Shown: one piece after another, positions 4,006 through 21,023 of the stretch
Position numbering within the stretch: position 1 is the first letter of the stretch
How the letters are laid out: every line of letters starts with the position of its first letter
Assembly: GCA_033182465.1 (NCBI GenBank)
Contig: CP137319.1
Coordinates: forward strand, 3,596,001 to 3,660,000
Source: Sanghuangporus weigelae
Taxonomy: Eukaryota > Basidiomycota > Agaricomycetes > Hymenochaetales > Hymenochaetaceae
Length of the DNA: 64,000 nt
Direction of reading: 5' to 3'
Program-made: the position numbers and the translations under genes
The notes under the pieces: model-generated
Databases searched by the model: none
Told to the model about the DNA's origin: nothing
Seen by the model: the letters and a program-made list of their open reading frames with translations, nothing else

Positions 4006-6261
4006 CTAATTGTTTAAAAGGTCCATATCCCCCTCATGGCGATGATGTCGCTCAGCAAAAGTCCATGACGATTCTGATCTGCTCCCCTCCTCAACAATAG
4101 ACAGCAGTTCTCCACGTTCAGTTCGAGATGATGCCCGACTATGCGTGCTTCCACCAGAGCTAGAGCTGTTGCTTTTGAGACTTGCGTTGGATGAGCTACG
4201 AGCCCGCGGTCCTGTTGGTCTAAGTACGCGCGACAATTTGGTGGGGACTTTCAGAGAGGGTGGTGTACCACTCCATGAGCTCGGAGGATGAGGAGGGAAC
4301 GAGAACTGTGCGTTCTCCGGTATTGTCGGTATAGGTGGAGTAATCCCTGACGGACTACCAGGCTCGACTGACTCTAGAACCGGTATGCTAAACACACTCA
4401 ATGTCGATTGCCTCGCCTTGTGCCTCTCGGAGCGTGGAGAGTCGCTTGCACTGGTGCTCATCGAGTTCTTGCTTATCGGCGTTCTGGCATCGGGTGTCCT
4501 AGCAGCTGAACTGCGTCGCGATGGTTTACCGAAAGACCTCCGCAGACTGGAGCGTTTGCTGGAGTATGAGTGTAAGGAGCGGAGTATCTTGTTCCCTTTC
4601 GAGAGGCGGGAAAAATGACTGTGCTTGCTGTTGTGATGAGACAGCGAAGCGTTGGACGACGCTACGGCCGGACTATGTGCAAGAAGCGGTGTGTCGGGAC
4701 TGATGTCGTTCGCATCGTCGACATAAGCGACGTCTTGCTCTTCCACATGGTCTTGCTCGGATCTGGAACCGAAATGCTCTGCATAAAAGACTGCGTCCTC
4801 CATTTCGTCATGCACACTTTGAACGTCCTTCTCGTAGTTGACATGGTGCCACTCCTCTGTAAGATCTGACGAAGTAAACTCGTCGAATGTTCGGCGATGA
4901 GACCGAACAGATTCGACTGCTTGATTCCGAGACAATGACTCGACTCTGGAAGCTCCTACAGGCCCTACATAGACTTTCCTTTGCACTGGGCTGATATTTG
5001 TATCGATGCTAAGCGTCATCGCAAGACTGCGATTATGTCGGTGTGAACGAGATGGTGAGAATGACGGACGTGACGGTGGCGGAGGGAACCGAGTCAGAAC
5101 TGAACGGGAAGGAGTAGAAACGGAGAATTGTCCAATACTTAATGTACTTGGTCGCCTTATCTTTGAAAAGCAATCGATATCATCCCGTTTCATGAAAAAA
5201 ACTCCGTTACTCACTGAAGGCAGGAAACGAGCCGAACCATATGTTGCACCCCCAACATCTCGTTCCTCCATCTCTTCCGCAGCCTTCTCTCTGTCTTCAT
5301 TCTGTATGAAACTCGGTGCGCTGCTCCCAGGGCTTAAGTAACCTCTGCCTCCTATCCTTCGCGTAAGACGAAGACGTCGCAGACCCGTATAGCGAGATCT
5401 AGATCCACGGCTTCGATTTCTCTGGCGCTTGCAACATATGAAGAGGAAAGCTGCGAAAAGAGAGGTCGCTACGACAAGACCGACGGCGATTCCCACTGCT
5501 GCGCCTCTGAAATCATCAAATCGATCAGTTCGGAATCTACGTCTAATGAATGGTGCACCCACTTGCTCAGAGAAACGTCTGAGTTGTTTTTGTCTGACCC
5601 GGTAGTAGCCGTCATGGTCATGGTCATGGTCATAGTCAGTGTACTCGTCATAGAGGTAAGCGAAGGAGTGGGACTGGCTAGTCTGATTGGAAACGCTGGA
5701 CCAAAGTTAAATATTGGTATGTTCAATGGTGAGTGAAAGGGACTCGCCTGGAGGAAGAGGACTTGGCACTGCCGGAGGAAACGGGCTGAGCTGACCGGGC
5801 ATGATTTCGACACTATCAATATTGATTCTACCCTCGCCGACCTGCTGTATAGACACCGCGTGCTGTACTGTCCAGTCTAAATCGTCCTGATGCCACACCA
5901 TCTCTACCTGAAGCTCGGGCGAGCTAAGGTCAACAATCTTCGACTCCCAATCACAAGTGATGTTCATTTGACCGCCCTGCGGCGTCTTTGCTGAATACAG
6001 AGAAATACTGGTTCCCTGGAAGATAAGAGTGGCAGTCGCATTTGGCGATTTTGTCCAGAGCGCCGTTCCGTTGTAGTAGCCGCTTGCATTGGCCAAAGGA
6101 TCGTTTGCTAGCTGGTGCCTGAGACTCTAGCTGAGTGCTACTGAGACAGAAAGAATAAGAAGAAAGCAGACGCACCAGCCTGCCGCATGTCTAGTCATAT
6201 TCCCTTTCTCGGGGGTGGAGAAGATCCATTCTGCAGCCGAGTCGTCGACTGTAAGAGCCAT
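4006..6261 (-). CDS. Single-pass membrane protein with beta-sandwich-like ectodomain
   Basis: The gene reads leftward. Exon 1 (6261-6176) holds TVDDSAAEWIFST and joins at 6118 to a second exon beginning DPLANASGYYNGTALW; this TVDD...W...DPL...Y.GT pattern is common in secreted or membrane proteins of Agaricomycetes. A Ser/Thr-rich linker follows, with a run encoded by repeated ATGGTC-like triplets (near 5620-5637). The intron 5562-5507 then leads into one hydrophobic helix (GAAVGIAVGLVVATSLFAAF) followed at once by basic CKRQRN, so the ectodomain is outside and a Ser-rich tail of about 450 residues is cytoplasmic. No signal peptide is visible after the ATG at 6261; it may sit in an unrecognised upstream exon. 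One intron between ectodomain and linker (about 5700-5820) is not resolved. Possible cell-surface sensor or wall-associated protein; no specific function is assigned. Confidence 0.65.
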
Positions 6262-7594
6262 GTATGGTAAAAAGAAGGAAACGAGTGGAGACAGTGGAAC
6301 GTCGCAGAAAAAGAAGCCGACCGAAAGAGAAGAGGTCGTTTGAAGCGGAGGAACGTCTCAAACGTTCATTGGAGGGGAGAGACGAGCAAAGGAAACATGC
6401 AATAGTATGCCCAAGCCTTCAAGTGCGTGCTAGATGTCCCTCTGCGACGGGATCAGAGGCGGTGAAGGCGGGAGATGATAGCGATCGCGAGGAGAGGCGG
6501 CGCATCTGCCAAATGGTATCAAACTGGAAGAGTAGTAACGACTGCTGACTACTATTATAACTGGAGGGAACAGTTCTTACACCATGAGACTTTGATGCCG
6601 AGCAACGAATCGTAAACCGAAGAAGGTTCCCAGTATCAATGCTTTGGACCAGAGAAGGACATGCGATGATTGGGAACTGATATAGCCTTGATGAGTGAAC
6701 ATGAAAAGTCCATGCATCTGGTCAGCGGTGAGATAGGAACGGCCTCCCATCGTCGCAACTGGGCGATGACCGTCCACTTTCGGGTAAGAACTTTGTATTT
6801 ACAACCCGAACTGGTTCAGCGCTGTTGTCAATGTTGATCCTCAACACGCTTCAATGATCCAGTTGTATCTGTCCGGCCACTTGACGTTCTTCCGCTCATC
6901 GTACGTACTTATGAAGGCCGTGAGAGCCGTTTCTCCCTCTCACGGTCACGGTCACGACGGACGCAACCACAACTAACAGTGAAATACCGACTCGGACATG
7001 GCATCATGCAATCATGTTCTGTCATGGGCGTTGCCTCGTAGCGTACTTTTGCAGACCACTCAGGCTGCTACTTCGTTTTCTACTAGCTCTCCATCGAGAC
7101 TGTCGAGTCGAATAAACATGCACGCGAGGCACGCTTCAAGATTCCTGGCGTCGAGAACCGCGTGGCAACGTCCATGAGAATAGAATATATATATATACAT
7201 ATATATGTTTGTTCGCTGTCGTCGTGGCAATCCACATTTGATATGTCTGTCTCGGGACACCAAAGGACCGAAAAAAAAATGCCGAGAAAGGCGCTAATCA
7301 TTGTAACGACCAATAGAAGCCTTTCTACGATTGCGTCAGTCCCTCGCGCGGAGGTCGACTTCGGCAATCTAGGAACAGAAGACCACAATTTCAAGACACT
7401 CTGATCAAGGACTTGCGGTGAAAACTCGCTTCCCGTTCACTAGATTTCATATCAAAAGAAAGAAAAACATTTTAATACTTCCTTGGTTGTTTGGGATGGC
7501 GAATCCGAAACTTTCACTGTGCCGATGGTTACGAGAATTTCCTAGTCCTTCACTCATCGTTCGCAGGGTATGCTTGCAGCTATGCAGGAAACCT
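6262..7594. other. Intergenic region with a short AT microsatellite
   Basis: About 1.3 kb. The only structure I can name is an AT/TA run at about 7184-7206. A highly basic frame at 6264-6548 lies antisense to the presumed 5' region of the membrane protein and shows no domain, so it is not called a gene. Confidence 0.5.
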
Positions 7595-7597
7595 TAG

Positions 7598-8331
7598 AGC
7601 CTGTTCGGGTGCAGTAACTCACGCAATCTCTATCTTGCTCTATCTCTATCTGGCACTTTGCAAGATAGAGATAGAGGTAGAGGATCATGTGTACCGAACA
7701 GTCTGCCTATTTCTGATGTGACGCACTGATGTGACATGATTGTTCCTGCCGAGACTTGTGTATTATATAATATACTTTATTACAAATCTCTTCACTGCAA
7801 AATGCCCCCTCCCTCGATGTCGACACTGAAGAAGAACAATCCAATGCCTCGACGACCAGCTCAAAAGCAGTGTTCTTCAATCCGGACTCCGACTGCAGAC
7901 CGGCTTCCCTTGCCTTCTTGAGCATGTTAAGGAGGATGGTCTCTTGGTGGCTGTTCCATGAACAGGGAGTGGACATCACGTAGTCACTGATCGTCAAGCG
8001 AGTCACCTCGGAGTCGTCGTTGGTCGTAGATCAGTCAATTGACAACAGCCGTTGAAGGAGGGAGAGGGAGAGAGATAGTATGGAGAGGGGAAAGGCATTG
8101 CAGAGGCCATGCAAAGAGATTGAGATTGCATGAACAAGATACAGGTCAGACCTGTATCTCGGCCGTGACAAGTTTTGGCAGGGAGATAGAGGTTACAGAT
8201 AGAGATAGCGAGTCGAGATAGAGGCAGCCGAACAACTCGTGAGATAGAGATTATCAATCTCTATCTCACGAGATCGTGATCTCTTTTTTTGGCGCGCACT
8301 ATCTCGCGAGTTACTGCACCCGAACAGGCTC
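7598..8331 (-). mobile_element. PIF/Harbinger-type non-autonomous element, copy 1
   Basis: Terminal inverted repeats start GAGCCTGTTCGGGTGCAG and are flanked by the 3-base duplication TTA at 7595-7597 and 8332-8334. A TWA target site and this kind of terminus are typical of PIF/Harbinger elements. The body is 734 bases, has subterminal runs of CTATCTCTATCT-like sequence on both sides, and contains a frame resembling the Myb/SANT-like accessory protein of the superfamily but no transposase. An almost identical inverted copy starts 45 bases after its right target duplication. Confidence 0.8.
7707..8006 (-). pseudogene. Myb/SANT-like domain remnant in Harbinger element (copy 1)
   Basis: A 99-codon frame starts with MTRLTISDYVMSTPCSW and continues with a helix-like segment ETILLNMLKKAREAG and LKNTAFELVVEAL. 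The spacing of Trp, Leu-rich helix and the FELVVEAL-type segment resembles the Myb/SANT-like domain protein that PIF/Harbinger elements carry beside the transposase. Only the first part of such a domain is present and the rest has no family resemblance, so I read it as a remnant in a deletion derivative. The identical frame at 21024-21323 in the second element copy shows both came from one recent source. Confidence 0.45.
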
Positions 8332-9006
8332 TTACATTTGCCATAGATCGCGCAATTTCGTATGGATCAGCCGCTAACCTAAGAGCCTGTTCGGGTGCAG
8401 TAACTCGCGAGATAGTGCGCGCCAAAAAAAGAGATCACGATCTCGTGAGATAGAGATTGATAATCTCTATCTCACGAGTTGTTCGGCTGCCTCTATCTCG
8501 ACTCGCTATCTCTATCTGTAACCTCTATCTCCCTGCCAAAACTTGTCACGGCCGAGATACAGGTCTGACCTGTATCTTGTTCATGCAATCTCAATCTCTT
8601 TGCATGGCCTCTGCAATGCCTTTCCCCTCTCCATACTATCTCTCTCCCTCTCCCTCTGAAAGGATCCGCTCAAAAAACTCGCATCAGGATCGACGCGATC
8701 AGCAGATCCACACGATCAGCTTTCCAAACACAACCAGTAACCAAGCCAGCTATCACGGGCCCAAGCGATCGAGCGGCCTAGGCAACAGTAACCCGTTACC
8801 ACCCGAGCGCTAGAGGCACCGAAGCGGATACGTAATCCCGCTAACAGCTAACACCGCCGACCGCCTATTACCGCGGACTACCACTCTAACGCCGCCGACC
8901 AAGCAACCAGAGTGACCTCGATCAAAAGAAGCGATCAAACTTCTTAGAAGTCCAGAAGCACACTACTAAAGCCTAAACGCTAAAAGGCTAAAGGCTAATA
9001 AGGTTT

Positions 9007-9648
9007 ATGGAGACCTCACTGGCATTTCAGCACTGTCAAGTCTGTGCACGAGTTTACATGGTCCTTTATGAAGTATACTACATAGTATGCACGGCAACAG
9101 TTGGTACGCGTGACTGTCACATCGAAACCGAGCGACACCTTCAGGATACAATGCATTCCAATCCACCAAACCCAATAGTACCCAAGAAACGAGAGGAACT
9201 CACGATCACAACTCGAACCCCTCGAACTGCGAACCCGATAACTTGGAGAATGATTGGATGGTATAGACCGGAGTTGCACACACCATGTCCAGCATCTACG
9301 ATACAGGCAAACCTTTATTTACCGAGAGATGCGAACCTGGAAACCAAGCAATTACAACTCCTTATACAACGAAGGATATGGCGCTACATTCGAGATATAC
9401 GATACGAAGGCAAAGCATGGCTAGTCACCAGAACCCAGCAGAACCCACCAGCAGAGCTTATGCAGTTCATGATATGCCTTGGACCATACTCTACACCGAC
9501 CCGACACCTTAACACTGACGTGCGAGTTATGCTTACCCTCGCTGGACCTCGAGATGAATTCCGAAGAATCACATACCGAGCAGCCTACATCGCTCCAAGA
9601 GCAAAGATGCCACTCAATGACGGCAATGACATCGTTATGGAGTACTGA
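9007..9648 (+). CDS. LTR-internal ORF, 213 codons (5' copy), function unknown
   Basis: A complete ATG-to-stop frame within the predicted U3 of the LTR. The product is basic, rich in Arg, Pro and Thr (for example RTPRTANPITWRMIGWYRP), with no domain I recognise and no clear signal peptide; an early hydrophobic, Cys-containing segment (VYMVLYEVYYIVCTATVG) could be a membrane helix. It differs from the 3' LTR copy by one residue (Ala here, Ser there). Because it lies upstream of the predicted RNA start, this copy is outside the genomic RNA, whereas the 3' copy would be in its 3' part. Length without stops over 640 bases is suggestive of coding, but codon-level proof is missing. Confidence 0.4.
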   Translation: METSLAFQHCQVCARVYMVLYEVYYIVCTATVGTRDCHIETERHLQDTMHSNPPNPIVPKKREELTITTRTPRTANPITWRMIGWYRPELHTPCPASTIQANLYLPRDANLETKQLQLLIQRRIWRYIRDIRYEGKAWLVTRTQQNPPAELMQFMICLGPYSTPTRHLNTDVRVMLTLAGPRDEFRRITYRAAYIAPRAKMPLNDGNDIVMEY

Positions 9649-9862
9649 CAGTGGAGCATTCCATATCGGAGCACCACCTCTATTGTCTCAGTCAGCAACT
9701 CCAAAGAATTCTGTCATAGTGGAGACGACCTTACAAAGATTGGAGCAAAGTGGAGCGAAGCGCAGCAGGATGACAAAGGAACAGATGTAATGGTGGAGGA
9801 AAGTGGAGTAAAGTGGAGACAGGATGAGTAAGAAATAGGACGGAAAATGGAATATCTGGGAG

Positions 9863-9898
9863 CATAAATAGTTGTAGGATTAGGCCCTCATTTCCCCA
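9863..9898 (+). promoter_or_regulatory. Predicted core promoter of the Gypsy element
   Basis: CATAAATA at 9863-9870 is a TATA-like box, and about 30 bases later begins the segment (9898-9909) complementary to the PBS. In self-priming elements that segment is the very 5' end of the RNA, so the spacing supports transcription starting at about 9896-9898. Inference from spacing. Confidence 0.6.
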
Positions 9899-10170
9899 TC
9901 TTTCGATCCTCTTAACACACTGGTGTAAAGCTTGCCCTACAGCGAGCTATTACTGTGTGCTTTGTACTATCACGCCTCTTGGAAATCCCAATCTGCTTTA
10001 CTATTACCTCGTATCTGAAAGCATCCATAACTCGGACCGCAACTAGGAAGGCTAGTAAGGGACCGCGTGGTACAGCCAGACGTGGGTAGATAAGATCACC
10101 TCTGCACAACACACCGCTGCTTAGGCAAAAGGATCAAACCGGTGTAACCCCGGGCCTACTCCCTAACATT

Positions 10171-10182
10171 GGATCGAAAGAT
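10171..10182 (+). other. Primer-binding site, likely self-priming
   Basis: GGATCGAAAGAT, two bases after the 5' LTR, is the exact reverse complement of ATCTTTCGATCC at 9898-9909 within the LTR. This matches the Tf1/sushi mechanism, where the 5' end of the RNA folds back to prime minus-strand synthesis. The sequence is preceded by T, giving TGG, so a tRNA primer is not fully excluded, but I know no tRNA 3' end matching it. Confidence 0.65.
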
Positions 10183-10229
10183 CACTCGCTAGTTTTACCA
10201 CCACCTCTCACGGGCAAGGTTCTTGGCTA

Positions 10230-10571
10230 GTGTTTTATCGAGGCGAGGACCGTCGACCTCAAGTCCCTATCGACGTCACTAGTTTCGAGACTAGTACCCA
10301 TATCGAATCCTCAGGACAAGTGCACATCCTGGAGAACGACAAACCCGATTCACTTAAATCACATATCTACTATCATAACCCCTACAACGACGAAGTGTAC
10401 CTAATAGCAAAGGCATCTGGTAGCCCTGCAGTTGGGAGCACGCAAACAACAACCACGAAAGTAGCAGCAGTCCCTTCCACTATTGCTACATTCGACGAGA
10501 AAGGAACTACTTGGTTAACAGCACCAAGGAACAATAACCCTGAAGCATCAGGCGAGAAACGAAGTTCATGA
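10230..10571 (+). CDS. Gypsy accessory ORF a, 113 codons, unknown
   Basis: First frame after the PBS. The product begins MFYRGEDRRPQVPIDVTSF, includes an acidic/Tyr-containing stretch (YYHNPYNDEVYLI) and a Thr-rich segment, and has no recognised domain or membrane segment. Its stop codon overlaps the start of the next frame as ATGA (10568-10571), a layout that permits termination-reinitiation. It may be a leader peptide coupling translation of the following frame or a short structural protein. Unknown function; the overlap is the main reason to believe it is translated. Confidence 0.4.
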   Translation: MFYRGEDRRPQVPIDVTSFETSTHIESSGQVHILENDKPDSLKSHIYYHNPYNDEVYLIAKASGSPAVGSTQTTTTKVAAVPSTIATFDEKGTTWLTAPRNNNPEASGEKRSS

Positions 10572-11602
10572 ACCGATCAGGAAACGCCAACAACAGAAGT
10601 AACGGTCATCGAACGAACGAACGGGCGAACGATAATCAAACGAGGTTCACACCTAGATCCCTCGACGAACGAGTTCAACATATCACCAACAGGCTACGTA
10701 GTCTGGAAAGCGATCACGACATACTATACGCGACAACGAACCACAGCATATTGTATCCACCAGTGATCAGAAGGCTACAAGAAAGGGTTGAAAGACTGGA
10801 AGAACGAACTGCAAACACGGGGCAGTCAAACAGTCTACCAACCGGAGCATACGCGACAGCAGTAGGAGATCGATTCGAAGCACTAGAAGCAACTACTCAA
10901 AGAATTGGAGCACAAGTAGCAGCTCTAGAGAGATATACTCTGGAATTGGATCGAGCAGCAGGAGCACTCAATCATCGGGTCATAGACGGAAACGGAGTAC
11001 TTGACCGAGAGCTCAACGCTATCCGAAACAGGATTACTGCTCAGGAACAACAACTACAGACGATCGAGACGAGAGTCGGAGAGCTTAACAGGACAGCTCT
11101 AGATCAACCAAGGATTGTTCAAGACATCCATAACCTGCGAGAAGCCCTACTCCAACTAGGACAAACAATCGAGTCGAGTCAACGCACCTACGCAGCTATA
11201 CTCACATCGGTACAGACAACCGAAACTACCTCAAGGAACATACTCGAACACGCTCAACGAATTCGAGAAGTAGCTCAGGCAGCACAACGCTGGGAATACT
11301 TTCTACCAAGAGAGAGAGCCCAACAGGAACAGAGTTCTGACGAATCAGTGTCCTCAGACGAAGAAGCATCACGAAGGCCATTCTTACTCAGAACCCCACC
11401 TCGAACGGTTATCATCCAAGTACCAACAGTACCTGCAGTACCAGCAAGTGGTTCAGTAGCAACCCAAGCGCCAGAGAATCCACCACCACCATCCTATTCA
11501 CCACCAGCAGTGCCCATAAGCACATACGACCATGTCGACAACCGACCAGAAGGTGCAAGCACTGGAGCAGCAACTACAGACTCTTCAGACACAACTCTCT
11601 AA
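10568..11602 (+). CDS. Gypsy accessory ORF b, 344 codons, coiled-coil, upstream of gag
   Basis: Starts at the ATG of an ATGA overlap with the preceding frame and overlaps the start of gag by 71 bases (11532-11602). The middle (about residues 35-235) is rich in heptad-like Leu/Ile with Glu, Gln and Arg, for example RLQERVERLEERTANTG and EQQLQTIETRVGELN, so a long coiled coil is predicted. The C-terminal part is Ser/Asp acidic, then Pro-rich with PPPPSYSPP, which contains a PPxY sequence. No enzyme motif. A coiled-coil protein next to gag could assist particle assembly, in place of or beside the capsid; this is inference. It is too long and regular to be chance. Confidence 0.65.
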   Translation: MNRSGNANNRSNGHRTNERANDNQTRFTPRSLDERVQHITNRLRSLESDHDILYATTNHSILYPPVIRRLQERVERLEERTANTGQSNSLPTGAYATAVGDRFEALEATTQRIGAQVAALERYTLELDRAAGALNHRVIDGNGVLDRELNAIRNRITAQEQQLQTIETRVGELNRTALDQPRIVQDIHNLREALLQLGQTIESSQRTYAAILTSVQTTETTSRNILEHAQRIREVAQAAQRWEYFLPRERAQQEQSSDESVSSDEEASRRPFLLRTPPRTVIIQVPTVPAVPASGSVATQAPENPPPPSYSPPAVPISTYDHVDNRPEGASTGAATTDSSDTTL

Positions 11603-12620
11603 ACACAGCATCAAGCTTCCGAAGTACTATGGCAAGCGAAGCGAAGATATTGATCTGTGGATTAGTCGATGTATCTCGAAGCTGGCACAGCATGGAGTCA
11701 AGGATGAGGAGGAGATCGCAAAGAGCCTATTCGCAGCACTCGAAGGCGACAGCTACGATTGGTTTGCAGAGAAGAATACCCTAACATCATTCGATGCCAA
11801 TGGGAAACTGAAACCAGTACCTGCGATTATCGCTGCAACAAATGGAATGTTCGCATCACTCAAGGACATGCTGAACTGGATGAGGATCCGAGCAGGACAT
11901 CCGATCATTGGAGAACAGGAAGCCCTATTCCAACTACTATGCATCCAGCAGAAAGGAGCAAGCATTAGGGCGTACAACGACGAATTCCGACGACTCAAAG
12001 CACGAGCACCAGACACGATGGATAAGCAGATGCTCAAGTACATCTATGTCAAAGGACTAGACATGTGGGTCAAACGACGAGTCGAATCTGTACAACCCGA
12101 CGCTTTCGAGAAGAACGACCTCGATGCATGGATGGAATGGACAAGCAACCTAGCAAACTCCGATGCCAGGCAAAGGCTCATGGGTAGTCAAACATATACC
12201 CCAAGATTCAAATCGAATGGACAGTCATCTTTCCGACCACCAGTACAAACAATGAAACGAGATCCAGACACCATGGATGTAGATGCACTCCGAGGCTTGC
12301 CGAAGAAGGGAGGCAAATGCTACAACTGTGAAAAGTCAGGACATTACGCAAAGGAGTGCAAGGCACCAAGGAAGCAAAAGGGTTCTTCCTCTAAGCGGCC
12401 GAAGAAGACTAATGGTGTAAAACGGAGGACGATGACAACACGAACAATCGATTTCAAGGAAACATGTCCCGATCCACACTGCCGAAGGCCAGTCCACTAC
12501 GACCATGTAGCATGGGCTAAAGGCGACGAATCAGCAGGATGGACTTGCAAGCATGACGAAGAATACCGAAACAACATTCGCAAATCCCTAGCAAGTAAAG
12601 AGCAACAGGGAAAAGATTAA
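11532..12620 (+). CDS. gag: Gag polyprotein with CCHC zinc knuckle
   Basis: 362 residues. The N-terminus has a short coiled coil (KVQALEQQLQTLQTQLS), then KYYGKRSEDIDLWISRC and a helical Ty3-gag capsid-like region with WFAEKNTL, and near residue 260 the zinc knuckle CYNCEKSGHYAKEC (C-x2-C-x4-H-x4-C) that binds genomic RNA. A second Cys/His-containing segment (CPDPHCRRPVHYDH) lies near the C-terminus. It forms the virus-like particle in the cytoplasm. It begins inside the preceding frame (+1 relative to it) and ends with CAG GGA AAA GAT TAA, placing a slippery heptamer just before the stop. ATG at 11532 is the first in frame after the proline-rich part of the upstream ORF. Confidence 0.9.
   Translation: MSTTDQKVQALEQQLQTLQTQLSKHSIKLPKYYGKRSEDIDLWISRCISKLAQHGVKDEEEIAKSLFAALEGDSYDWFAEKNTLTSFDANGKLKPVPAIIAATNGMFASLKDMLNWMRIRAGHPIIGEQEALFQLLCIQQKGASIRAYNDEFRRLKARAPDTMDKQMLKYIYVKGLDMWVKRRVESVQPDAFEKNDLDAWMEWTSNLANSDARQRLMGSQTYTPRFKSNGQSSFRPPVQTMKRDPDTMDVDALRGLPKKGGKCYNCEKSGHYAKECKAPRKQKGSSSKRPKKTNGVKRRTMTTRTIDFKETCPDPHCRRPVHYDHVAWAKGDESAGWTCKHDEEYRNNIRKSLASKEQQGKD
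12608..12614 (+). promoter_or_regulatory. Candidate -1 ribosomal frameshift site
   Basis: G GGA AAA in the gag frame fits the X XXY YYZ slippery pattern. A slip of -1 reads GGG AAA AGA TTA and enters the pol frame, which I checked is open from here to the pol ATG at 12725 and beyond. A weak 5-bp hairpin (CATCG/CGATG, 12627-12648) follows after about 12 bases; stronger structure would need folding. Confidence 0.55.
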
Positions 12621-12724
12621 GACCTCCATCGAACGAGACTGCGCGATGTGAGTGTGACAAGGGTGACGAGAAAGGTTTCAACAACCAGTGTTTCAAACCT
12701 CCTGGGTTCAACCCCAGTGAAGCG

Positions 12725-15700
12725 ATGTACAATAAGCGATTGCCAATACAAGCATTGCATCCCCGATTACCTATTCGAGTGAAGGTTGGAACAAAGACCC
12801 TAGCAGTCAAAGCGTTAATCGATTCCGGAGCTACATGCAGCACGATACACCCCAACTTGGTACGACACTACAGCCTATTCAAAAAGAGGCTTGATCACCC
12901 TCGACCTTTGAATAATGTGGATGGAAGTCCCAACCAAGGAGGAGCAATCACGCACGAGGTCTACACATTAATTTTTGATGGACCTAAACCGCAGCCACAA
13001 ACGTTGGCAGTAGCAACCACAGGACAGGATCAAGTGATCCTAGGAATTGACTATTTGGCCAAAGTCAATCCCGAAATTGATTGGAAGAATCAAGTATGGA
13101 ATCGGAATGGTAATTCGATACCATTCGAGCTCAACGTCATACGAGCTACCAAGAAGCGAAGGCACAGGAAGCGCAAACGGAAACGGCAAACGAAAGGCAA
13201 ACCTGACAAGACAAGACCTAGGCATAACACGAAGCAACAGGCTCAGGACAGAGACAACTATCGACACTCTGGAGCACCAGGAATAATATTTGCGCCAAGG
13301 AGAGACAACAACGGACACTCTCACGAAACGAAGCCACAAGCGAAGCCGGAAACCAGACCAGCAACACCAAGACTGGAACAGGCAAAACAGACGCCAGAAG
13401 TGAAGAGTCCGAGCACGGAAAATATACCAGACTCTGCAACGAAACAGCCACAACAGGAAACGGCAAACAAGCATCATCGAGACGAACAGGAGGAAATAAA
13501 CTACACTCCCAAGCGATGGAAGAAACAGGCACCACAAGGAACGAGTATAGTGCAACGACGACCAAGGCACATACCGAGACGGATGATCCCAGCACGGCAA
13601 CTGTACCAGACATCCGAAGGTGAAACACAAGATGTAACAGGCAAGCATAGCCTAGACGAACAGGAGGAAATAAACGACTCTCCGAAACGTTGGAAGAAAC
13701 AACCACCACAGAAGATACACCCACTGAGGCAAAACATGCCGGAAGATGAAGAACTCTGGCCATCACCAGAAGAAAACCCGGGCATGAAGTATAGGATACG
13801 ACCACGAAAGACACGGTATCCAGAGAAGCCAGTGGCAGGCATTATACGACCCAGAACAGCATCGTTAATGCGAGGAGCTAGTCCCACACCGAAGCGTACA
13901 AGATGGGCAGACAACGAAAGCGATATCGAGATGCAAGACGAGCAGGAGACAACAGAAGACACTCCTATGCACGATATAGAGCCAGAAGACATTGAAAGTC
14001 TTAGGACGACCAACCAACCAGCTACCCTTACCAGAAAGGAAGAGCTCGCTGCAAAGCTAGAGCTAGACATCAATCGAAATTGGTCACCAAGGCAGCAGAA
14101 CCAAGTCTCACAGCCACTGAACAAAGCGAGTTCAGTATCCCAGCAGTATTCTCAGCAAAAGGCAGCTGCAGAAGGACTACTAGGAACACAGAAACGAGAT
14201 TGGCGAAAACTCCTACCAAAGGAAATAGAAGACTACGCAGATGTCTTTGATCCTGACAAGTCAAGAAGGTTACCCAAGCATACGAAATGGGATATGGCGA
14301 TTAACCTCAAAGAAGGAGTACCATTACCGAAACCAAGGCCTATTATCAAGCTCACACGAGAAGAGCAGGCAGCACTCGATGCTTATGTCAAAGAGTTACT
14401 TGACAAAGGATGGATTGAAAAGGTTCAACCACATGAACCATGTCCGGTAGCAGCACCAGTCTTCTTTGTAGGAAAGAAAGACGGAGGAGCACGAGCAGTA
14501 ACCGATTACCGAGACATCAACGACACGACAGTATCAGATCCATACCCGATACCGATCATGAGTGTTCTCCCAGAGAAACTGGAGAAAGGAAAATTCTTCT
14601 TTACACTCGACATGCGATCAGGTTACAATAACCTGCGAATCCGAGAAGGAGACGAGTGGAAGGCAGCATTCCGAGTTGGCAATGCAGTCTACAAGCCAAA
14701 GGTCATGATGTTTGGAATGAAGAACTCACCGGCAGTATTCCAACGATTCATGAATGACAACTTCGAATATTGGCTCAGGACAGAAGAAGCACTCAACTAT
14801 TTGGACGACCTTATTGGTCAAGCACAAACTGAAGAGGAACATTGGAAACTCCTCAGGGCAATTCTACAGAAATGCCGAGAGCTCGACATTTACCTCAAAA
14901 TCGAGAAATGTCACTTCCTCCAAACCCAGCTCGACTACTTGGGATTTGTAGTAGGAACGAAAGGCATCCAGATGGATCCTTATAAGCTAAAAGCTATTCA
15001 CGAATGGCCAGTGCCAAAGACGAAACGACAAGTTCGAAAGTTCCAAGGATTTTGTAACTTCTACCGAAGATTCATCAGGAACTATGCCGATACATTCGCA
15101 CCTATTGGCGACCTTATCAAAAAGGATCGCAAGTTCATATGGGCAGAGGCACAAGATAAGGCATTCGAAAGTATCAAGAAGGCATTCGAAACGGAAGTCG
15201 CATTGGCAATGCCAAAGCCAGACAAACCATATACATTGGAAACCGATGCATCCGATGTAGCGATTGGTGCAGTCTTACAACAAGAAGACAACCAAGGAGA
15301 ACTGAGACCTTTAGGTTTCATGTCGAAAACTCTAACGAACACCCAACGAAACTATCCGACGCATGACAAAGAGATGCTAGCAATCATGGAAGCACTCAAG
15401 CATTGGAGACACCTATTGGAGGGAACCAAAGAACCAGTAACAATCCGAAGCGATCATGCAAATCTCCGATACTTCATGACAGCTCAGAATCTATCGAGAC
15501 GTCAAGCGAGATGGGCACTAGAGTTATCACGATATAACTTCAAGATTCTCCATTGGCCAGGCAAGAAGAACCAAGCTGACGAGCTATCACGACGATCCGA
15601 CTATATGCCAGAGGACAAGGACAACTTAGGAGTTACCTTGTTACCTCCTGATACGATCAAGCAACAAACATTGCGACGCACAGAGATCAACGGTCTATAC

Positions 15701-17206
15701 AAGCTAGAAACTGAAATGGTCACTATCTCTGATCCTATTATCCGAACGATCAAGAGGAACTACAATACCGAGGAGGCTAAGAAGGAGATTCAGGCGATCA
15801 AGCAGAGCAACGGCTACAGTTACAGGAACGGCTTGCACTACGTAACCAATGCATTATATATCCCGCCGTCCGCCAACCTACGAGCGTTGCTAATCCGAAG
15901 GCGCCATGATCACAAACTTGCAGGCCACCCAGGAGCAGAAAAGACCATAGAGCTTGTAAAGCGATCATACTATTGGCCGAAGATGGAAGAAATGATCCGA
16001 GCATATACCGCAACCTGCGACATATGTCAGCGTGCAAAACCGATTCGACAGTTTCGAAATCCGCCGCTCCAACCGTTGGAGGCACCACATCAACCATGGG
16101 AAACCATAACCTGTGACCTGATTACCGACTTACCAGTCAGCAATGAAGGCTACAGCGCGATACTCGTTATAGTGGACAAACTCACTAAAATGGGGAAGTT
16201 CATTCCTTGCCAAGGAATACCCAATGCTAAGCAGTTGGCACGTTTGTTCCGCCAACATGTCTTCAAATACTACGGGGCCCCTAAACGAGTAATCTCCGAC
16301 CGAGGTAGCAACTTCACCGCGCAATTCCTCAAGGAGTTCTGCAGACTCATCGATGTCGATTGGAAAACTAGTACAGCGTATCATCCACAAACCGATGGTC
16401 AAACCGAGCGACTAAATCAAGAGCTTGAACAGTACTTACGCTGCTATGTGTCCTACCGACAAACAGATTGGGCAGAGTACATCGATATAGCAGAATTCGC
16501 CTACAACAACAGGAAGCACAGTACTACACATCAGTCACCATTCTATACACTGTATGGATGGCATCCTCACCTGGACGTTGCGGAGACCGGTGATTCAAAC
16601 GTCCCAGAAGCAATAAATCACCTAGAGGAGCTTCGACAAGTACAGCAAGAAGCCTATAATTCGATTAGGCAAGCAAACGAGGCAATGAAGCTTTATGCAG
16701 ACCTGCATCGAGGCAAACTGCCAGAGTACAAGCCAGGAGACGAAGTGTTACTAGACATGAGGAATCTCAGTCGATTGGAACCAACGAAGAAACTTGCAAT
16801 GAAATGGGCAGGGCCTTATAAAGTCGAGAAGGCAGTCGGACAAGTGTCATTCAGATTACGCTTACCCGAAACCCTTCCGATCCACCCAGTGTTTCATGCG
16901 AGTCTTCTCAGGCCTTACAAACGAAAGGAATACCCTGGAAGACCCACTTTGGATGAACCACCACCTATTGAAGTGGAGGGAGAAGCAGAGTACGAAGTGG
17001 AGACAATTCATAATACGAGACGTCATCGGAGCAAGGTCCAATACCTTATCCAATGGAAAGGATACCAAGAGCGAACATGGGAGCCACTTGACAACCTCAA
17101 GAACTCCTATCAAATGATCGAAGCATTCCATAAAAAGTATCCTCAGGCAATCCAGCCACCGAACCTTAACCAATGGATCGCCGCACGAAAACGAATGAGG
17201 CAATAG
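12725..17206 (+). CDS. pol: Pol polyprotein: protease, RT, RNase H, integrase, chromodomain
   Basis: 1493 residues from the first ATG; the open frame extends upstream to overlap gag. Order: aspartic protease with LIDSGATCS (Asp33), a long charged linker (about 150-430) containing two near-identical segments, reverse transcriptase with YLDD at 692-695 and the FFTLDMRSGYNNL motif, RNase H beginning LETDASDVAIGAVL, integrase HHCC finger (GHPGAEKTIELVKRSYYWP...CDICQ), catalytic Asp1131, Asp1192 and Glu1228 with D-35-E spacing, and a C-terminal chromodomain (about 1423-1480; YLIQWKGY, TWEPLDNL). All catalytic residues I can check are present. PR-RT-RH-INT order and the chromodomain make it a Ty3/Gypsy chromovirus. 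The chromodomain normally targets insertion to methylated-histone chromatin. Expression is either by -1 frameshift from gag or by restart at 12725. Confidence 0.95.
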   Translation: MYNKRLPIQALHPRLPIRVKVGTKTLAVKALIDSGATCSTIHPNLVRHYSLFKKRLDHPRPLNNVDGSPNQGGAITHEVYTLIFDGPKPQPQTLAVATTGQDQVILGIDYLAKVNPEIDWKNQVWNRNGNSIPFELNVIRATKKRRHRKRKRKRQTKGKPDKTRPRHNTKQQAQDRDNYRHSGAPGIIFAPRRDNNGHSHETKPQAKPETRPATPRLEQAKQTPEVKSPSTENIPDSATKQPQQETANKHHRDEQEEINYTPKRWKKQAPQGTSIVQRRPRHIPRRMIPARQLYQTSEGETQDVTGKHSLDEQEEINDSPKRWKKQPPQKIHPLRQNMPEDEELWPSPEENPGMKYRIRPRKTRYPEKPVAGIIRPRTASLMRGASPTPKRTRWADNESDIEMQDEQETTEDTPMHDIEPEDIESLRTTNQPATLTRKEELAAKLELDINRNWSPRQQNQVSQPLNKASSVSQQYSQQKAAAEGLLGTQKRDWRKLLPKEIEDYADVFDPDKSRRLPKHTKWDMAINLKEGVPLPKPRPIIKLTREEQAALDAYVKELLDKGWIEKVQPHEPCPVAAPVFFVGKKDGGARAVTDYRDINDTTVSDPYPIPIMSVLPEKLEKGKFFFTLDMRSGYNNLRIREGDEWKAAFRVGNAVYKPKVMMFGMKNSPAVFQRFMNDNFEYWLRTEEALNYLDDLIGQAQTEEEHWKLLRAILQKCRELDIYLKIEKCHFLQTQLDYLGFVVGTKGIQMDPYKLKAIHEWPVPKTKRQVRKFQGFCNFYRRFIRNYADTFAPIGDLIKKDRKFIWAEAQDKAFESIKKAFETEVALAMPKPDKPYTLETDASDVAIGAVLQQEDNQGELRPLGFMSKTLTNTQRNYPTHDKEMLAIMEALKHWRHLLEGTKEPVTIRSDHANLRYFMTAQNLSRRQARWALELSRYNFKILHWPGKKNQADELSRRSDYMPEDKDNLGVTLLPPDTIKQQTLRRTEINGLYKLETEMVTISDPIIRTIKRNYNTEEAKKEIQAIKQSNGYSYRNGLHYVTNALYIPPSANLRALLIRRRHDHKLAGHPGAEKTIELVKRSYYWPKMEEMIRAYTATCDICQRAKPIRQFRNPPLQPLEAPHQPWETITCDLITDLPVSNEGYSAILVIVDKLTKMGKFIPCQGIPNAKQLARLFRQHVFKYYGAPKRVISDRGSNFTAQFLKEFCRLIDVDWKTSTAYHPQTDGQTERLNQELEQYLRCYVSYRQTDWAEYIDIAEFAYNNRKHSTTHQSPFYTLYGWHPHLDVAETGDSNVPEAINHLEELRQVQQEAYNSIRQANEAMKLYADLHRGKLPEYKPGDEVLLDMRNLSRLEPTKKLAMKWAGPYKVEKAVGQVSFRLRLPETLPIHPVFHASLLRPYKRKEYPGRPTLDEPPPIEVEGEAEYEVETIHNTRRHRSKVQYLIQWKGYQERTWEPLDNLKNSYQMIEAFHKKYPQAIQPPNLNQWIAARKRMRQ

Positions 17207-17381
17207 TTGCATCACATGCACTCCACCCGATGGAGCCGCTTATGGATCCACAATAGAGACGATGAGTAAGGTCCCCAATGACCTTACCAAGCGATGACAT
17301 CAATGTGGCACACCAAAGCGAGAGCAGAGATAGAAGAATTAGGCAAGACATCGCCGACATACCAACAAGATGGTATAAAAC

Positions 17382-18458
17382 ATGGAGAACTTCGAGCTAA
17401 GGAACAACAACTCGAATCTCAACAGCTCTACTTCACTGCAGACGAACCACTACTCAGCTATGCCTATTTTCGACGAGCTACATGCATTCTGTCAACCAGA
17501 AGATGCACCAGAATGGACATTTACACTCAGACCACCGACCGAACGTTATCAATGGCCACAGCTGTGCAACCGATTCAACGAAGAGAACTACGAAGATGAG
17601 ATTGTACCCCTATGCCCAGGGAAGTACTTTGATGATCTATTTGACAAGTGGAACGCAGTCCACCACAACCGAGACGAAATACCCCACCTTATGATGGCGA
17701 ATCACTCAGACGAGTGGTTATTCAAACTCAGTAACCCTCGAGACGCAGCATTACGCCGACTCAATGATGATGCATTTCTAACCTACGCGATCGAACTCGA
17801 AACACAAGCATTACATCGAGGCAAGATCGACTTTAGGCACGAAACGACATACAAGAACATCATGGGCATCTATCATTCGGCAATTCAAATTTGCGCCTAC
17901 CGACGAGACATGACTACCGCAATTCTTAACCGAATGATGCGATGGAGTCACTATCATCCGATGAGCATCGATACAATGAAGTACATTATATACATAGCCG
18001 ACCAGACGGGCTTCTATGCATCCCACACCATGCAGTTCATGACGGTACTCAACATGACGAAGTATTACGAAGGAACGAGATACCGAACGGTTATTGAAGC
18101 GAGGAACTCTACTACGGACGAGGTACCACTCGACAACATCGAGCACCACGTAGTCGAAGGCAAAGAGGTTAACTACGACCCTCATTACCTTATGGAACTC
18201 AACAACCGAGAGGAAGAAGCCAGAGAAAAACTACAGGCTACACGACACCCCTTGCTGGAAGATCTGATGATCTCAGTCTACCAGTACCCGAACGAACTCT
18301 ACCAGCCGGACGAGATGCTTACTATGTCGGAACAGGAGGACATGTATATACACTCCGACGATACAGAGTCAAGTGAAGAAGGTGAAAATAGGGAACTATA
18401 TACCCCAGCGAACTCGGCCCAGACTACACCTGAGGCTGAAGAATCCGAAGATTTGTAA
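17382..18458 (+). CDS. Gypsy 3' accessory ORF, 358 codons, unknown
   Basis: Frame downstream of pol in the position where some related elements carry env. The product starts MENFELRNNNSN (an internal Met at 17460, MPIFDELHAF, is an alternative start), is rich in Trp, His, Tyr and Met in the middle (PEWTFTLRPPTERYQWPQLC; MMRWSHYHPMSIDTMKYIIY) and ends in a very acidic tail (DDTESSEEGENRELY). I see no signal peptide, no furin-like site and no membrane anchor, so it is not an envelope protein. No known enzyme motif either. The uninterrupted length inside a nearly unmutated element argues it is translated. Could be a regulatory or host-interaction factor; unknown. Confidence 0.6.
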   Translation: MENFELRNNNSNLNSSTSLQTNHYSAMPIFDELHAFCQPEDAPEWTFTLRPPTERYQWPQLCNRFNEENYEDEIVPLCPGKYFDDLFDKWNAVHHNRDEIPHLMMANHSDEWLFKLSNPRDAALRRLNDDAFLTYAIELETQALHRGKIDFRHETTYKNIMGIYHSAIQICAYRRDMTTAILNRMMRWSHYHPMSIDTMKYIIYIADQTGFYASHTMQFMTVLNMTKYYEGTRYRTVIEARNSTTDEVPLDNIEHHVVEGKEVNYDPHYLMELNNREEEAREKLQATRHPLLEDLMISVYQYPNELYQPDEMLTMSEQEDMYIHSDDTESSEEGENRELYTPANSAQTTPEAEESEDL

Positions 18459-18471
18459 ACAACTCTTCTTT

Positions 18472-18777
18472 TATGCAACCCCCTTTCCCATATCGTGACC
18501 CGACATGGTCAATTATGCATTTCATTCTTACCCTATAATATTTATGGTCACATCCGACCAAATTATGCTTTATGCACCTCTTTATTTCACACTTATTCGG
18601 CCAACCAGCACAAATGAAGCACTATGCAGAAGTGTCAAAGAACCAACAAGGGCCTAGACATTTTGTATATTGTTTTATTGTGCCGGCGCCGAATTGGCAG
18701 ATTATGCCTACTTTTTATTATCCTCTATGCAAAGGAGAAGCCAAAAGTTTACGTGAAACCGCTTCCTTGCACTATGC
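18472..18777 (+). repeat. Cluster of TATGC motifs in the Gypsy 3' non-coding region
   Basis: TATGC occurs at 18472, 18514, 18564, 18571, 18623, 18703, 18726 and 18773, often as TTATGC or CTATGC. Eight copies in about 300 bases on one strand is far above chance for a pentamer in this composition. They lie between the 3' accessory ORF and the end of the antisense gene. Confidence 0.5.
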
Positions 18778-19015
18778 TAGGATGTGGCTTCACGCTGAAA
18801 GGCACTCTAATCCCACTCTTTCTTCGAAAAACTCCATTTGGGGGTTGAAGAGCCGTAGGTAAACACCTGGAACTTCACTCCCAAATTGGTATAAAACTTA
18901 TTCATTAACGACTTAATGATTTTAATGACTTTATAATTTCTTTCTTATCACTTTCAATTGCGTCATATTCTTTACATGATGCACATTTCATATTCATATC
19001 CCTTCCCACCACCCT

Positions 19016-19331
19016 TTACAAGTCAATGTCTTCCCAGACACCCTTTTCACGACGTTCCTGCGAAGCAATACCTGCATTTTCGACGACTGGATCAATATCC
19101 TCAACGTCATAACCGAGTGCGAGGTGAACTCGAAGCGCAACAGTAGTAACATCGCGCTGGAACGATTGCATTTCAAAGTCGGCCTCCTAGAGGAAGATTA
19201 ACGACTTGAAACGGCACAGAGCATGCATCACTTACCTGAGCACGCCTCTTACGCTCCAAAATCCAATGATTTATGCCGAAAATCGCGACAAGAACGACAA
19301 AAACAGTAGCAGCAGCGGCGACTTTCGACAT
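19016..19331 (-). CDS. Antisense spliced gene in the Gypsy element: 88-residue single-pass membrane protein
   Basis: On the strand opposite to gag-pol. Exon 1 is 19331-19236 (ATG with A at -3, 32 codons), the intron is 19235-19187 (GTAAGTG donor, TTCCTCTAG acceptor, 49 bases), exon 2 is 19186-19016 (56 codons plus TAA). Reading through the intron ends in a stop, while splicing keeps a 56-codon open frame, so the intron model is well supported. The protein starts MSKVAAAATVFVVLVAIFG, a single hydrophobic helix, followed by LERKRR, then a polar domain with HLALGYDVEDIDPVVENAG and ending GVWEDIDL. Size and layout resemble small mitochondrial or ER membrane proteins, but I do not recognise the family. 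Its intron persists because it is antisense to the retrotransposed RNA. It may be a captured host gene or an element-specific antisense ORF. Confidence 0.7.
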
Positions 19332-19442
19332 TTTGGAGCAGAGATGATGATGGTTTGATAGCAAAGACCAACCATCACTAGGCGACCCTTTATCCGAGCT
19401 TTCTCACGGATTAGGATGAACATTTCTCCGAAAGTTCATCTT

Positions 19443-19455
19443 AGGGGGGGTGTAG
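19443..19455 (+). other. Polypurine tract of the Gypsy element
   Basis: AGGGGGGG followed by TGTAG directly precedes the 3' LTR. Purine runs in this place prime plus-strand DNA synthesis. Confidence 0.6.
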
Positions 19456-20967
19456 TGAAAGGATCCGCTCAAAAAACTCGCATCAGGATCGACGCGATCA
19501 GCAGATCCACACGATCAGCTTTCCAAACACAACCAGTAACCAAGCCAGCTATCACGGGCCCAAGCGATCGAGCGGCCTAGGCAACAGTAACCCGTTACCA
19601 CCCGAGCGCTAGAGGCACCGAAGCGGATACGTAATCCCGCTAACAGCTAACACCGCCGACCGCCTATTACCGCGGACTACCACTCTAACGCCGCCGACCA
19701 AGCAACCAGAGTGACCTCGATCAAAAGAAGCGATCAAACTTCTTAGAAGTCCAGAAGCACACTACTAAAGCCTAAACGCTAAAAGGCTAAAGGCTAATAA
19801 GGTTTATGGAGACCTCACTGGCATTTCAGCACTGTCAAGTCTGTGCACGAGTTTACATGGTCCTTTATGAAGTATACTACATAGTATGCACGGCAACAGT
19901 TGGTACGCGTGACTGTCACATCGAAACCGAGCGACACCTTCAGGATACAATGCATTCCAATCCACCAAACCCAATAGTACCCAAGAAACGAGAGGAACTC
20001 ACGATCACAACTCGAACCCCTCGAACTGCGAACCCGATAACTTGGAGAATGATTGGATGGTATAGACCGGAGTTGCACACACCATGTCCAGCATCTACGA
20101 TACAGGCAAACCTTTATTTACCGAGAGATGCGAACCTGGAAACCAAGCAATTACAACTCCTTATACAACGAAGGATATGGCGCTACATTCGAGATATACG
20201 ATACGAAGGCAAAGCATGGCTAGTCACCAGAACCCAGCAGAACCCACCAGCAGAGCTTATGCAGTTCATGATATGCCTTGGACCATACTCTACACCGACC
20301 CGACACCTTAACACTGACGTGCGAGTTATGCTTACCCTCTCTGGACCTCGAGATGAATTCCGAAGAATCACATACCGAGCAGCCTACATCGCTCCAAGAG
20401 CAAAGATGCCACTCAATGACGGCAATGACATCGTTATGGAGTACTGACAGTGGAGCATTCCATATCGGAGCACCACCTCTATTGTCTCAGTCAGCAACTC
20501 CAAAGAATTCTGTCATAGTGGAGACGACCTTACAAAGATTGGAGCAAAGTGGAGCGAAGCGCAGCAGGATGACAAAGGAACAGATGTAATGGTGGAGGAA
20601 AGTGGAGTAAAGTGGAGACAGGATGAGTAAGAAATAGGACGGAAAATGGAATATCTGGGAGCATAAATAGTTGTAGGATTAGGCCCTCATTTCCCCATCT
20701 TTCGATCCTCTTAACACACTGGTGTAAAGCTTGCCCTACAGCGAGCTATTACTGTGTGCTTTGTACTATCACGCCTCTTGGAAATCCCAATCTGCTTTAC
20801 TATTACCTCGTATCTGAAAGCATCCATAACTCGGACCGCAACTAGGAAGGCTAGTAAGGGACCGCGTGGTACAGCCAGACGTGGGTAGATAAGATCACCT
20901 CTGCACAACACACCGCTGCTTAGGCAAAAGGATCAAACCGGTGTAACCCCGGGCCTACTCCCTAACA
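19456..20967 (+). repeat. 3' LTR of the Gypsy element
   Basis: Same 1512 bases as the 5' LTR with one visible difference (T at 20340 for G at 9541). Followed by the target duplication CCCTC. Confidence 0.95.
19806..20447 (+). CDS. LTR-internal ORF, 213 codons (3' copy), function unknown
   Basis: Counterpart of the frame at 9007-9648 with a single Ala-to-Ser change. This copy lies downstream of all other element genes; if the RNA ends in R beyond about 20697, the frame is included in genomic RNA, or it could be expressed from the antisense-gene region or internal promoters. No domain recognised. Confidence 0.4.
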   Translation: METSLAFQHCQVCARVYMVLYEVYYIVCTATVGTRDCHIETERHLQDTMHSNPPNPIVPKKREELTITTRTPRTANPITWRMIGWYRPELHTPCPASTIQANLYLPRDANLETKQLQLLIQRRIWRYIRDIRYEGKAWLVTRTQQNPPAELMQFMICLGPYSTPTRHLNTDVRVMLTLSGPRDEFRRITYRAAYIAPRAKMPLNDGNDIVMEY

Positions 20968-21023
20968 CCCTCCTTCAACGGCTGTTGTCAATTGACTGAT
21001 CTACGACCAACGACGACTCCGAG

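Follow-up and report, generated by a model that had tools for sequence, protein, structure and literature searches.

A Ty3/Gypsy chromovirus in the basidiomycete Sanghuangporus weigelae carries, antisense to gag and pol, a two-exon frame for an 88-residue protein, and comparison between its copies indicates that natural selection keeps this frame as protein-coding sequence and that it is not a chance frame. We consider it probable that the antisense gene serves the retrotransposon itself as an accessory gene, in which a minus-strand promoter would give a spliced mRNA for a selected membrane protein.

An antisense gene in a young chromovirus

The element occupies positions 8657–20967 of the window, a stretch of 64,000 nucleotides of contig C2 (3596001–3660000; Table 1). 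Its LTRs start with TG, end with CA and lie within a 5-base target duplication (CCCTC, 8652–8656 and 20968–20972), and because they differ at one of 1512 bases the element is young. The Pfam domains of pol are RVT_1, RT_RNaseH, Integrase_H2C2, rve and Chromo, in that order, and a pol with reverse transcriptase, RNase H, integrase and a C-terminal chromodomain identifies the element as a Ty3/Gypsy chromovirus, so that domains and LTR/target-duplication structure agree. No envelope gene was recognised in the element.

Table 1. Features of the element and its antisense gene (window positions)
Feature	Position	Strand	Details
5′ LTR	8657..10168	+	1512 bp, self-comparison, 1 mismatch to 3′ LTR
gag (CCHC zinc knuckle)	11532..12620	+	Pfam zf-CCHC above cut-off; Retrotrans_gag slightly under cut-off
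pol: RT, RNase H, integrase, chromodomain	12725..17206	+	Pfam on two pieces
ORF3	17382..18458	+	conserved start at Met27 of frame; no known domain
Antisense gene, two-exon frame	19331->19016	-	49-base GT-AG intron, 88-residue product
Antisense exon 2: acidic tail	19016..19186	-	56 codons + stop (TAA, 19018-19016)
Antisense intron	19187..19235	-	49 bp, phase 0, GTAAGT / TTAAT / TAG
Antisense exon 1: membrane helix + RKRR	19236..19331	-	32 codons, ATG at 19331
Leader/promoter candidate	19332..19455	-	TATA-like GGATAAAGGG (19395-19386), hairpin, G-rich polypurine tract; putative promoter role
3′ LTR	19456..20967	+	1512 bp, self-comparison

Two further frames were seen in the element. A 344-codon sense ORF (10568–11602), coiled-coil-like by eye, lies between the 5′ LTR and gag and overlaps the start of gag, and a 213-residue sense ORF is present in both LTRs (9007–9648 and 19806–20447); Pfam returned nothing for either. 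Set against the LTR of a diverged locus described below (L044; 4278–5727, minus strand), the LTR ORF shows 38, 25 and 58 differences by codon position over 210 codons, and it may be coding too. The roughly 600 bases immediately before the 5′ LTR (8058–8656) match their own reverse complement at 96% over 602 aligned columns, which indicates that the element inserted beside or into another repeat.

The antisense gene lies between ORF3 and the 3′ LTR. An earlier note on this DNA, made from the sequence, had described a young Gypsy retrotransposon bearing a two-exon antisense frame of 32 + 56 codons with a 49-base GT-AG intron and a product with one N-terminal membrane helix, and both descriptions are upheld here; an alternative acceptor three bases further would give 87 residues. 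Hydropathy of the product is greatest over residues 2–20 (2.24, 19-residue span), and RKRR follows the helix. AlphaFold2 predicts the helix confidently over about residues 3–30 (mean pLDDT by ten-residue block from the N-terminus: 83, 92 and 86) and gives the tail low confidence and no confident fold (pLDDT 48–63). Under the positive-inside rule a basic stretch flanking a membrane helix marks the cytosolic side, which would place the acidic tail, whose net charge lies between −7 and −10 across six sequences, in the cytosol. The ends of the product are most conserved in the alignment (MSKV; AGI..QE.REKG.WE) and the middle is least conserved. A D-x-E motif, found in the tails of all seven database proteins of the homologue alignment and of the window product (DYK in L044), is one that we take to resemble a di-acidic ER-export signal, the motif being too short for a claim. 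Every Pfam match of the product fell below the cut-offs (AtPDCT1_2 at E 0.013, the others weaker), as did AAA_lid_3 in five of seven family members (best E 0.029). The one match from a PDB profile search, a weak one at E 0.05, was to the membrane region of ErbB2; it was attributed to composition and set aside. By these searches, the product appears to belong to no known family.

When the 997-base region was shuffled with dinucleotides preserved, models with a GT[AG]AG donor, a branch-like motif, an AG acceptor and at least 88 codons in two exons arose in 11 of 400 shuffles, so the frame observed in a single copy is by itself only moderately unlikely. The argument that the gene is real is instead established by comparison between copies.

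Copies of the gene and its intron

The genome (33.87 Mb, 13 contigs) was searched with the product and with P0009, a homologue from S. baumii; 150 of 217 candidates were scored in each search, the 217 of each first look being the number that two exons in each of 108 copies, and one match more, would give. The product gave 108 matches to exon 2, comprising 107 at 89–98% identity and one at 55% (L044, on contig C9), and P0009 gave 107 matches to exon 1, none of which contains a stop. In 107 of the 108 exon-2 matches the acceptor TAG is the sole stop; the other copy, L017, has CAG and no stop. Base-by-base reading covered 52 of the 108 copies (the window copy, 50 other family members and L044), which were chosen by score and not at random (the highest-scoring copies, those next in order, the lowest-scoring ones and four from further down), and in all 52 the coding sequence measures exactly 267 bases from ATG to stop.

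The gene is found downstream, on the opposite strand, of 106 of 111 ORF3 matches, at a distance of 545–566 bases in 105 and of 1646 in one. Five ORF3 matches are without it: two are truncated, two contain stops (93% and 50% identity), and the fifth is C5:2492093, 98% identical and matched to residue 354 of 358. Two antisense matches are without ORF3, namely L044 and C5:2506024. The L044 locus (4278–5727 and 7485–8056) is a mosaic, with an inverted LTR upstream of the antisense gene, and it yielded no match to gag, pol or ORF3. Judged by these positions, the antisense gene forms part of the element. It shares with aORF-3R genes an antisense coding sequence between pol and the 3′ LTR and its presence in most copies, with a conservation similar to that of the element's other genes if somewhat weaker; antisense transcription, a further feature of such genes, is predicted.

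A GT..AG intron is present in all 52 copies read; it is 48 bases long in L041, 50 in L044 and 49 in the other 50 copies. Donors are GTAAGT (48 copies), GTGAGT (3) and GTAGTG (1, in L041, where the loss of one base has weakened the site), and acceptors are TAG (51) and CAG (1). The introns of the window copy and L044 differ at 16 of 49 sites, and despite this divergence both retain GT[AG]AGT, a YTAAY motif near the 3′ end (TTAAT or CTAAT) and TAG. Directly before exon 2 stands the acceptor TAG, which is a stop in frame, and two residues ahead of the first Met in exon 2, E33 and D35, do not vary in the alignments. Exon 2 is therefore most naturally read as joined to exon 1, and we infer that the gene is transcribed and spliced. 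No intron-less copy was found among the 108 (exons matched apart; 52 read base by base), as expected if the intron rides through retrotransposition in the sense RNA. Such an intron would be inherited because genomic RNA shows it to the spliceosome in the wrong orientation, and the earlier note's proposal that an antisense intron can be inherited is supported.

An intron in a retroelement gene would also be the outcome of antisense capture of genomic DNA, and transduction is known in other elements, according to the relevant passages of PMC7264820. The earlier note had suggested a captured host gene, and a fragment of one might be carried as cargo. We regard this as unlikely: the product and P0009 searches, at the candidates scored and within their sensitivity, found no relative outside the element in the genome, product and profile searches of the database returned, within their sensitivity, none outside Sanghuangporus, and the selection described below, acting in place, speaks against inert cargo. 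The suggestion thus gained no support; an ancient host capture that has diverged past recognition is possible.

Selection on the antisense frame

With L044 left out, variable sites among the 51 copies number 15, 9 and 32 by codon position, and pN/pS over distinct haplotypes is 0.235. The earlier note had proposed dN/dS across copies as a check, and the outcome is constraint, not neutral decay. The 24 coding haplotypes are connected on a minimum spanning tree by 47 synonymous, 38 nonsynonymous and no stop changes, related copies being non-independent, a dependence that the tree lessens and does not abolish. Under a null in which each change was relocated at random among sites sharing its base and CpG state, the mean was 24.3 synonymous changes, none of 5000 trials reached 47, and 2.8% were without any stop. 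The real frame is stop-free in all 51 main-family copies; the five other frames have stops in 6 to 51 copies each. Among copies, pN/pS is 1.07 in both shifted antisense frames and 1.30, 0.26 and 2.11 in the sense frames, and the sense frame at 0.26 (shift +1) has stops in 51 of 51 copies.

Comparison with L044 extends this pattern over a greater distance. The window copy and L044 differ at 31, 13 and 35 sites by codon position (pS 0.57, pN 0.23, pN/pS 0.40), with 40 residues changed against an expectation of 47.6 (P 0.007), and only 2.3% of trials were free of stops; three other frames give pN/pS of 0.50–0.61, little above 0.40, and contain stops. Of the 79 differences in L044, 38 are G→A or C→T changes, and this copy has probably also decayed since insertion, which would raise pN.

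Constraint on the antisense gene is somewhat weaker than on the other genes of the element. Its pN/pS is 0.19 in 26 copies, nearly the same set as that used for gag (0.12, 25 copies), pol (0.10, 26) and ORF3 (0.11, 27), the window copy included. Stops occur in two copies for gag, five for pol and five for ORF3. In 8 of its 27 copies ORF3 also has a net frame difference, which may reflect its variable first codons, the conserved start being Met27.

These comparisons bear on whether the frame arose by chance in a young family that has lacked the time to decay. The shuffled models speak for such an accident, as does the finding that 23 of the 28 copies retrieved at 8 kb, counting the window copy itself, match the window throughout the stretch at 98% identity or more. 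It is contradicted by the synonymous excess among copies, by the reading conserved in L044 at pS 0.57 and by S. baumii homologues of equal length, and we reject it as highly improbable.

Upstream of the ATG, 17 of 124 bases differ from L044; the same comparison counts 35 of 88 third codon positions and the 16 of 49 intron sites, so that the upstream bases diverge less than exons or intron. This could be taken to mean that the antisense transcript is the functional product and not the protein, acting as antisense RNA or as dsRNA to modulate the element or to supply silencing, and roles for antisense RNA in plant and retroviral elements are discussed in passages of PMC7264820. The codon-position pattern, the low pN/pS and the absent stops would be unexpected of a function in RNA only, and we think it improbable that the transcript acts alone; a dual role of RNA and protein is possible.

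A hairpin (GATGAAC/GTTCATC, 19415–19440) lies in this region just upstream of the polypurine tract, with stems identical in L044, and the 121 bases around it (19340–19460) fold with a z of −2.84. It could have a role at the 3′ end of the sense RNA or in the antisense leader. A bacterial-type promoter scan was uninformative, the host being a fungus.

Relatives, known systems and proposed function

S. baumii has annotated 88-residue homologues at 58–64% identity (23 member sequences over P0004–P0008), and the most distant relative of the product is the 91-residue P0009, also of S. baumii, at 47%. The homologue search proposed in the earlier note was thus productive, both among the copies of the element and in the database. 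From their length and the residues around the junction, the S. baumii homologues would share the intron. P0008 (ACEPAG_5826) and the ORF3 homologue P0015 (ACEPAG_5827) bear consecutive locus tags and their contigs are both 2,780,392 bases long, and this one pair suggests that the linkage to the element extends to S. baumii. Two S. baumii ORF3 proteins are 57 and 55% identical to that of the element by MAFFT (54 and 50% by BLASTP) and a third is 73% identical over 40% of the query by BLASTP; the antisense product is about as similar. ORF3 homologues occur in four Sanghuangporus species (S. weigelae, S. baumii, S. sanghuang and S. vaninii), and for S. sanghuang and S. vaninii the database gave no homologue of the antisense product. 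The database holds only three S. weigelae member sequences against 107 genome copies, so annotation is leaky, and the missing homologues may be an annotation effect.

The gene resembles the aORF-3R genes of plants and the brtn gene of Boty in where it lies and how it is conserved, and in antisense splicing at the 3′ LTR it would match hbz. Boty of Botrytis cinerea has a gag-pol with a CHROMO domain, as described in part of PMC4227169, and brtn is an additional antisense gene between its pol and 3′ LTR (Zhao et al. 2011, Virology 417:248, as cited in passages of PMC7264820, PMC8365987 and PMC4227169); its host is an ascomycete, and it is set beside the S. weigelae gene by description and not by sequence. 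The plant genes (Grande gene23, RIRE2, Retand and PvRetro13), according to sections of PMC7264820 and PMC11963269, are likewise antisense, lie between pol and the 3′ LTR and are carried by the majority of copies in each family. For Grande gene23, an upstream promoter drives transcription, by the same sections. Unlike the S. weigelae protein, the plant products are described there as nuclear (Grande) or as containing SMC or TRP28 domains (PvRetro13, Retand), and the word "intron" is absent from the main text of both papers.

Among retroviruses, HTLV-1 hbz and HTLV-2 APH-2 are spliced antisense genes expressed from the 3′ LTR, and HIV-1 ASP is an antisense product with membrane segments and two predicted helices, as given in sections of PMC10186651. 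The likeness to hbz and APH-2, drawn by description, would be that a reverse-transcribing element has a spliced antisense gene at its 3′ LTR, splicing in S. weigelae being predicted from the conserved signals; these primate retrovirus products differ in being nuclear bZIP or CREB/Tax-binding proteins, and ASP shares antisense coding and a predicted membrane helix but has two such helices against one. In architecture alone the product is like HIV-1 Vpu, which is sense-encoded and has about 80 residues with a short N-terminus, one membrane helix, a basic hinge and an acidic tail.

The earlier note had held a spliced antisense gene in a fungal chromovirus to be new. As regards an antisense gene as such this does not stand, since brtn precedes it. 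As regards an intron-bearing gene for a membrane protein it may: the open-licence literature searched yielded no paper on a spliced antisense ORF in a fungal LTR retrotransposon, and an intron with conserved signals, a membrane product and codon-level selection on such a protein in a basidiomycete element were found nowhere in it.

In the accessory-gene reading that we favor, a minus-strand promoter beside or within the 3′ LTR would drive the mRNA, splicing would remove the 49-base intron, and the 88-residue protein would enter the membrane by its N-terminal helix, leaving the acidic tail on the cytosolic side. As the protein would benefit the element, selection between element lineages would retain the gene. 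The frame, the conservation of its sequence and codons, the splice signals and the linkage to the element are supported directly. The most likely role would be that of a small membrane accessory protein that ties element proteins to a cell membrane or alters it. Of the earlier note's other suggestion, an element function acting on host membranes, the membrane helix is the part that is supported, and such an action may follow. More tentatively, and with rather less than even confidence, we suggest that fungal chromoviruses independently evolved a retrovirus-style spliced antisense accessory gene by the 3′ LTR, for a small single-pass membrane protein with Vpu-like architecture, hbz-like expression and element-level selection, in an element with no recognised envelope gene.

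The functions of antisense ORFs in LTR retrotransposons are stated to be unknown in the relevant part of PMC7264820, and a conserved 88-residue membrane protein offers a small, testable object for this question. The gene would also be a clean natural case of an intron that survives repeated retrotransposition by lying antisense, tied to selection on a protein. Since 107 copies in this genome carry it, as does no fewer than one other species, existing genomes and RNA data allow its evolution and expression to be followed.
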